Shown: positions 44,809 through 45,231 of the stretch, piece after piece
Position numbering within the stretch: position 1 is the first letter of the stretch
Layout: each line of letters begins with the position of its first letter
Source: Bradyrhizobium sp. ARR65
GTDB taxonomy: Bacteria; Pseudomonadota; Alphaproteobacteria; Rhizobiales; Xanthobacteraceae
NCBI RefSeq assembly: GCF_000472385.1
Contig: NZ_AWZU01000009.1
Coordinates: 124,204-188,203, forward strand
Length of the DNA: 64,000 nucleotides
Direction of reading: 5' to 3'
Translations under genes and position numbers: made by a program
The notes under the pieces: generated by a model
What the model was told of the DNA's origin: nothing
The model's input: the letters and a program-made list of their open reading frames with translations, nothing else
Databases searched by the model: none

Positions 44809-44855
44809 CGTCATTCCGGGGCGGTCCGAAGGACCGAACCCGGAATCTAGAGGTT
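44809..44855. repeat. Half of a CGTCATTCCGG palindrome
   Basis: CGTCATTCCGGGGCGGTCC ... GAACCCGGAATCTAGAGGTT: the left arm up to the centre of the element, with the right arm missing. Compare AATCTAGAAGTT at the centre of the complete copy at 40967. The GIY-YIG relic begins 13 bases further on, and the half element lies 13 bp from the ligA start codon. Confidence 0.85.
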
Positions 44856-44867
44856 ATAAGCACCGTC

Positions 44868-45142
44868 ATGGCTTACTATGTATATATTCTCGCCAGCCGG
44901 AAGGACGGGGCAATTTATGTTAGTGTGACGAACGACATCGTTTGTCGGGTGTACGAACATCGAATAAAAGCTGTCCAAAATACAATATCACGCGGCTGGT
45001 TTGGTTCGAGATGTACGAAGATGCATACACGGCCATTTCTCGCGAGAAAGAGCTCAAGAAATGGAAGCGGAGCTGGAAGGTCCAATTGATTGAGACGCAG
45101 AATCCAGACTGGAATGACTTGTACGAGTCAATCTGCGAGTGA
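44868..45142 (+). pseudogene. GIY-YIG nuclease relic (frameshifted)
   Basis: Frame 1 from ATG 44868 gives MAYYVYILASRKDGAIYV, then SVTNDIVCRVYEHRIKAV before drifting off; the frame from about 44949 continues KYNITRLVWFEMYEDAYTAISREKELKKWKR and ends NPDWNDLYESICE at 45142. Together these make a small (~90 residue) GIY-YIG endonuclease of the YhbQ/URI type. A loss of about 13 bases between IKAV and KYNITR (where relatives usually have a few more residues) explains the shift. The YVG triad reads YVS and an expected Arg-Arg reads Cys-Arg, so it is also worn at the active site. The segment is visibly richer in A/T than its neighbours, a sign of foreign origin. Confidence 0.85.
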
Positions 45143-45145
45143 CTC

Positions 45146-45231
45146 CGTCATTCCGGGGCGGTCCGGAAGGACCGAACCCGGAATCTCGAGATTCCGGGTT
45201 CGCTCGCTGTCGCGAGCGCCCCGGAATGACG
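45146..45231. repeat. CGTCATTCCGG palindrome
   Basis: 86 bp: CGTCATTCCGGGGCGGTCC ... GAATCTCGAGATTCCGGG ... GAGCGCCCCGGAATGACG. Lies three bases after the GIY-YIG relic and eight bases before the end of recN. Confidence 0.93.

Follow-up and report, generated by a model that had tools for sequence, protein, structure and literature searches.

A GIY-YIG nuclease pseudogene between CGTC-REPs in Bradyrhizobium sp. ARR65, a probable remnant of a unit of nuclease gene and palindromic repeats

CGTC-REPs are palindromic repeats with a CGTC or TGTC tag, a stem starting with AT and tails that are mostly CCA, and they are arranged in inverted pairs (Di Nocera, De Gregorio, Rocco 2013, PMC3733652). They occur mostly in Alphaproteobacteria, Bradyrhizobium being among the genera named, and the CGTC-1 repeats of Bradyrhizobium have a long loop; dRS3 is equated with CGTC-1. 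According to the parts of that paper drawn on here, transposase genes were sought for the CGTC-REPs and none was found associated with them, and the term GIY-YIG does not occur in its text. The repeats Br-REP1, with the consensus CCGGAATCTCGAGATTCCGG, and Br-REP2 were described as 3' UTR repeats with three stem-loops (Hahn et al. 2016, PMC5082802), and the sections of that paper used here link no nuclease to them.

A comparable system with a partner gene is that of RAYTs with GTAG-REPs and REPINs, which, going by the portions of PMC3733652 consulted, likewise combines a gene with short multicopy palindromes on either side of it, a lineage-specific pairing of gene and repeat and a mostly fixed gene site. 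The RAYTs belong to the HUH tyrosine transposases (IS200/IS605 group; PMC3733652), whereas the candidate partner gene treated here codes for a GIY-YIG nuclease and not for an HUH tyrosine transposase. The comparison with REPs and RAYTs, already drawn in an earlier, sequence-only reading of this DNA, is apt as regards flanking and co-variation only: the gene is flanked by its own repeat family, and gene and REP stem vary together. No paper linking a GIY-YIG gene to REPs was found in the open-access literature searched, which is no proof of absence.

Ssn of Neisseria and its relatives, reportedly treated in Nature Communications in 2025, is said to be a GIY-YIG nuclease acting site-specifically on single strands. 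Its target is reportedly repeated in hundreds of copies, many homologues are said to have targets of their own, and the work reportedly concerns single-strand cutting and transformation. The Neisseria gonorrhoeae homologue of our nuclease is 53% identical to the query of subfamily B2 and has 16 CGTC-tagged elements around it within 3.3 kb; this homologue among dRS3-type repeats may be Ssn. What is added here to the reported Ssn work are the flanking pairs, the gain and loss of gene and repeats together and the swaps at one site, although some overlap may exist.

The window, i.e. the whole stretch of 64,000 nucleotides analysed (contig NZ_AWZU01000009.1), is part of the 8.6-Mb genome of Bradyrhizobium sp. 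ARR65 (G000). Between ligA, coding for an NAD-dependent DNA ligase (42645–44795, reverse strand), and recN, coding for a DNA repair protein (45240–46922, reverse strand), it holds a GIY-YIG nuclease pseudogene of subfamily B2 (44868–45142, forward strand) with CGTC-REPs on both sides. The left side has one complete hairpin monomer (44809–44849, forward strand) with the tag CGTC, the stem ATTCCGGG/CCCGGAAT, an inner hairpin and the tail CTA, followed by GAGGTT (44850–44855, forward strand), likely what remains of a lost monomer that once completed the left pair. This hexamer matches the GAGATT of intact pairs at five of six positions, and the likeness extends 6 nt beyond the centre. The right side has an inverted pair formed by a first monomer on the forward strand (45146–45187) and a second on the reverse strand (45188–45231), with CTCGAG as the pair centre; the centre of this pair is the Br-REP1 consensus CCGGAATCTCGAGATTCCGG as given in the part of PMC5082802 used here. 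The left monomer folds as DNA at -15 kcal/mol (0/200 shuffles as good) and the right inverted pair of hairpins at -42.5 kcal/mol. The sequence-only reading had given the coordinates and distances of elements and gene correctly and had rightly seen an element on each side, but described the left one as broken at its centre and the right one as a full copy. The left element is not half a palindrome but one whole hairpin with 6 nt of its lost partner, and the right one is an inverted pair of two hairpins.

The elements of the window have the features of CGTC-REPs, i.e. a CGTC or TGTC tag, a stem of 8–9 bp starting with AT, a loop, which is long as in CGTC-1, a short tail and an arrangement in inverted pairs. 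The sequence CGTCATTCCGG, present at 44809 and 45146, has 23 sites in the window at one mismatch or less, against 2.88 expected (0/100 shuffles reach 23). A gene-less inverted pair of the same family as the REPs of the locus lies for example at 58789–58871 (no strand assigned), and other tagged elements are found near 26155, 31026, 35317, 40967, 54993, 60139 and 61637. REPs were detected by a tag of the kind [CTA][GC]TC followed by AT. Because the detector demands both, the CGTC/TGTC tag and AT stem start common to the REPs of all subfamilies are so partly by construction, and degenerate elements, such as CGTCGTTCC in L089 and L101, are missed.

The pseudogene begins with ATG at 44868 and ends with TGA at 45142, 3 nt before the right pair. 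Its GC content is about 0.50 against 0.55–0.72 around it (300-nt windows), and in alignment to two intact relatives its frame is shifted by a 13-nt gap and the glycine of the YIG motif is a serine. With the Pfam model PF01541 its C-terminal frame scores 22.5 bits, just below the cut-off of 22.6, while an intact B2 relative scores 61.3 bits, placing the nuclease in the GIY-YIG superfamily; the GIY-YIG fold is clear from Pfam. The copy in the window, lacking an open frame and an intact GIY/YIG motif, is thus a pseudogene, and its description in the sequence-only reading as a decayed GIY-YIG gene, AT-richer than its surroundings, holds.

A second family member was found in the same genome between recF and dnaN (L003/L004, C18:108464-108694). 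It has 77 aa against 95 in relatives, an internal stretch being missing, and is flanked by a TGTC-tagged REP pair. Both family members found in this genome, the ligA–recN relic and the recF–dnaN copy, look dead, and the CGTC-REPs of the genome may therefore be orphans. In the window the outcome is decay, with the gene broken and the left pair reduced; this looks like a reduced form because full pairs flank the gene on both sides in some relatives. We consider it likely that the locus is the decayed end of a two-part unit consisting of a small GIY-YIG endonuclease gene and its flanking CGTC-REPs.

Family matches (E ≤ 1e-5) were present in 140 of the 146 genomes sampled from the genus; some genes were counted as two matches, with a query lacking an internal stretch. 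B2, to which the window relic belongs, is found in the genus at ligA–recN, in 41 of the 146 genomes (DNA match). The genus loci are concentrated, 90 of 99 lying in five sites, and homing in the strict sense, with copies of the gene in many REP sites, is not seen. Two of the commonest genus sites, ligA–recN and recF–dnaN, lie between genes of DNA replication and repair. NCBIfam and PADLOC yielded no family for the nuclease. The nearest solved structures by sequence are UPF0213-type small GIY-YIG proteins (PDB 1zg2 and 1ywl, E 7e-9 and 1e-4).

The flanking of the gene by REPs was assessed in five samples of family loci with altogether 210 loci, six of which were dropped as lying near contig ends; the remaining 204 include many orthologous loci. 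Forty genus loci were picked by hand, and most of the relatives that supplied the named loci are Bradyrhizobium. A CGTC-REP was detected within 200 bp on both sides in 134 of the 204 loci (27/29, 23/40, 21/30, 45/76 and 18/29). In 183 loci at least one side had such a REP, and in 70 at least one side had none detected. At control positions shifted by 800–1000 bp the counts for both sides and for at least one side were 5/784 and 34/784, these controls not being matched for intergenic position because such shifts fall largely in coding DNA. The named sample, for which the best 80 places were taken out of at least 589 that were confirmed, had REPs on both sides in 45 of 76 loci against 3/281 shifted positions. 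Its organisms include MAGs of Omnitrophota, Parcubacteria, Nitrospirae, Chloroflexi, Planctomycetota and Deltaproteobacteria, among which binning errors are possible, together with Alphaproteobacteria. Two loci of the phylum sample (L206 and L208) repeat loci of G103 and G092 counted at ligA–recN.

Other small GIY-YIG loci had a CGTC-REP on either side in 0 of 28 cases, so that the UPF0213-type paralogues differ from this nuclease family; an inverted match of at least 14 nt of another kind was present in 2 of 22. The 28 loci comprised 12 from the paralogue search, one of them from the genome of the window itself, and 16 weak matches of the family profile taken as paralogues, of which eight match the paralogue query at the right place (E ≤ 1e-3). 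The Fisher p-values were 2e-105 against the shifted positions and 3e-12 against the other GIY-YIG loci, the loci not being independent; the better controls are the paralogue loci and the gene-less ligA–recN loci treated below. REPs are dense in the window, and a mere neighbourhood by chance, in which a small mobile-looking gene is often found near repeats that are common between genes, could be imagined. Such an explanation is strongly disfavoured by the counts at shifted positions and at other GIY-YIG loci, and we give it practically no credence. Palindrome enrichment beside the GIY-YIG genes of relatives, on whose absence the earlier idea was to fall, is thus present.

Subfamilies were sorted by eye on 70 loci, each with REP stems of its own: ATTGCCGGG or ATGGCCGGG in A, ATTCCGGG in B, ATGGCCGGG in C, ATCGCCCGG in D, and ATCGTCCGC and ATGCCCCGC in E. 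Some C-type units, e.g. L040, L064 and L068 (L191 being similar), have REPs of the same orientation on both sides, and the inverted layout is therefore not universal. The nuclease tree has 118 rows and 94 columns, with 62 of its 113 inner branches open. When the stem of the nearest REP (8 nt) is mapped on it, 57 changes are counted, against a mean of 87.8 and a minimum of 83 in 300 shuffles. When shuffling was kept inside classes (70 rows), 41 changes were found against 49.7 (minimum 45), and among 22 hand-picked Bradyrhizobium rows 7 against 13.1 (minimum 10). The Alphaproteobacteria without Bradyrhizobium (27 rows) showed no clear clustering of stems, with 19 changes against 21.6 (minimum 18). 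Nearest neighbours across genus sites had the same stem in 70 of 90 cases with shuffles reaching up to 74, the loci lying in few sites, and with one locus per site in 9 of 10 cases with shuffles reaching up to 9.

Also the abundance of the matching REPs was related to the gene, kinship being ignored in these comparisons. The median count of the B-REP 22-mer was 23 in genomes with the B2 gene (n = 41) and 6 in those without (n = 105; one-sided p = 1.2e-9), and that of C-REPs was 15 with the C gene (n = 26) and 8.5 without (n = 120; p = 0.00097), the presence of C genes in the 146 genomes having been read by hand from the match list. With the closer C genes alone the medians were 21.5 and 9 (p = 0.011). 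No cross effect of either gene on the REP count of the other was detected in the 146 genomes (two-sided p 0.40 and 0.43), and open and degraded B2 genes did not differ clearly in the B 22-mer count (medians 25 and 15, p = 0.065). There are clear exceptions: G138 lacks any family member at E ≤ 1e-5 but holds the B 22-mer in 69 copies, G021 has 50 C-REPs and no C gene, as is the case in many genomes rich in C-REPs, and G082 has an open B2 gene with only one copy of the B 22-mer. The nuclease may spread the palindromes, the matching REP being commoner with the gene, but there are these exceptions, and the divergence of the ligA–recN unit together with its flanks speaks against recent jumping.

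At ligA–recN a REP was present in 28 of 30 gene-bearing loci, and a CGTC-REP in none of 98 orthologous gene-less loci, the former count being selected and the latter not, because the gene-bearing loci were chosen by similarity to a query that contains REPs. The gene-less loci were originally 100, two being dropped as having no ligA match, and none of the 100 contained a family match at E ≤ 1. Full pairs were detected by tag on both sides in five of the 30 gene-bearing loci and on one side in 13 more; inspection by eye shows degenerate pairs in further loci. These counts imply that gene and palindromes come and go together at this site, and since the empty sites hold no CGTC-REP, the gene was not inserted into a pre-existing CGTC palindrome at this site. 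Many long gene-less spacers (among L104–L123 and L267–L346) hold a palindromic repeat of a non-CGTC kind, around GTGCCCCGGA and GTCCGGGACACG.

The same observations bear on a classical homing endonuclease, which would cut the TCTCGAGA centre of empty palindromes and have its gene copied in there. The position of the gene between REPs fits such an enzyme, as do weak matches in PHROG to homing endonucleases of the GIY-YIG type (E 4e-4 and 2e-3). The TCTCGAGA centre is, however, tied to the CTC-tailed B2 subfamily, while in the other subfamilies CCA is the usual REP tail, the sites per genus are few, and alleles that are empty but keep the intact target, as expected of homing, were absent among the 98 loci. 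Homing of this kind is thus very improbable, and neither it nor the cutting at the TCTCGAGA centre suggested in the sequence-only reading finds support in the data.

A flank tree of 128 loci shows how the two alleles are distributed. The filled or empty state changes 26 times against 27.1 when shuffled, at least nine of the changes being forced by starred branches. The tree is informative because the type of gene-less spacer (62 long, 33 short, 3 other) follows it, with 6 changes against 27.6. Filled loci and long spacers are scattered (24 changes against 25.5), and filled loci and short spacers clustered (9 against 21.4). Twelve filled/empty pairs taken from the tree have flanks 90–98% identical nearly to the gene ends, and the whole spacer differs. 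The unit of the filled loci diverges together with ligA (r 0.54) and recN (r 0.58), the lowest unit/flank ratio being 0.84 among pairs over 0.08 apart, and so do the long empty spacers (r 0.67 and 0.63, lowest ratio 0.52). Recent spread is not seen at ligA–recN, as the unit diverges in step with the flanks, and in our reading the dimorphism of the site is old and involved exchange or repeated loss rather than recent jumping.

The history of the site could then be that of one entry followed by ordinary recombination via ligA and recN or by many losses, with no drive, a reading that we consider about as probable as its opposite. It agrees with the co-divergence of both alleles with the flanks, with filled loci and short spacers being clustered on the tree and with the many broken copies, that of the window included. 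A palindromic scar of 18 nt, CGTCATTCCAGAATGACG on one strand, in which the outer REP ends are fused where the unit is missing (L121, about 307–324, in G048), fits as well. The cross-phylum association and the co-variation of stem and nuclease are left unexplained by it; being an account of a single site's past, it is compatible with our main reading of a two-part unit of nuclease gene and REPs.

A joint exchange of gene and REPs is seen at another site, where four loci (L064, L068, L057 and L040) have a gene and REPs of the C type and L037, with the same neighbours, has a gene and REPs of the E type. The flanks of L037 and L068 next to the unit are 83% and 84% identical, and the likeness ends 27–39 nt outside the left REP and resumes 19–20 nt outside the right one. 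Either gene and REPs were replaced together at this site, or two units entered the same spot. The claim that the nuclease occurs with the palindromes as a unit gains support from this swap together with the flanking, the stem co-variation and the joint presence and absence, so that the earlier idea of a nuclease/palindrome system was right in kind; the idea as a whole is partly supported, mobility being no more than possible.

The open genes are under purifying selection, with median dN/dS of 0.085, 0.057, 0.129 and 0.048 in four groups, and these medians of 0.05–0.13 indicate that the proteins are maintained. Matches in mobile elements were few: one of 50,697 phage records, a weak match of 35% identity, and 34 of the 72,556 records of plasmids, of which 34 all but one, i.e. 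33, were typed as non-mobilizable. The 34 include two chromosome-sized N. gonorrhoeae records filed as plasmids; the record of L264 (NZ_CP119140.1), filed as a plasmid in PLSDB, is of chromosome size with 2.17 Mb. All this would suit an Ssn-like single-strand endonuclease kept by the host, which would cut incoming or replication-exposed strands at REPs and tune DNA uptake or recombination, the REPs being target or regulatory sites and no vehicle. Also the mostly fixed sites in the genus, the co-divergence of the unit with its flanks and the Neisseria homologue among dRS3-type repeats, with its possible link to Ssn, are in line with a host function. Against it speak the swap of gene and REPs together at one site and the presence and absence scattered on the flank tree while spacer type follows it, since such flicker is not expected of a merely useful fixed gene. 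A host function of this kind is possible, although we lean towards doubting it.

Returning to the two-part unit, the sequence comparisons establish a cross-phylum association, co-variation of nuclease and stem, joint presence and absence, one swap and purifying selection. The GIY-YIG family is a candidate partner of the CGTC-REPs because these were reported without a dedicated transposase and, in the parts of PMC3733652 used here, published without a partner gene, whereas here a small GIY-YIG gene family accompanies them. The CGTC-REPs flanking the gene are most likely recognised by the enzyme, probably as single-strand hairpins. The enzyme would nick or cut its own REP, and host repair of such cuts might raise the copy number of the REP or help the gene-bearing allele to persist. 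The nuclease would thus play for CGTC-REPs the part ascribed to RAYTs in the case of GTAG-REPs, although it belongs to a different enzyme class.

GIY-YIG enzymes are hydrolytic nucleases, and therefore would not transpose alone; spread would need host repair. Tentatively, and with somewhat more reserve than confidence, we propose that CGTC-REPs and the GIY-YIG family may be a selfish or mutualist pair that spans phyla and parallels REPINs and RAYTs, in which the nuclease would cut its own class of hairpins, repair would spread the REPs, and units would be exchanged between alleles at fixed sites, giving the long-lived dimorphism of ligA–recN. The co-divergence with the flanks, the single match among the phage records and some REP-rich genomes without the gene are evidence against active jumping.

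CGTC-REPs are a large superfamily of palindromes, and how they spread was left open in 2013, going by what was drawn on of PMC3733652. The cross-phylum pairing with a nuclease makes this spread testable with one small enzyme and short oligonucleotides. If the proposal is true, REP-like systems would have a second way of arising that needs no transposase, and the pairing would bring the neisserial dRS3 repeats and the Br-REPs of Bradyrhizobium into one scheme.
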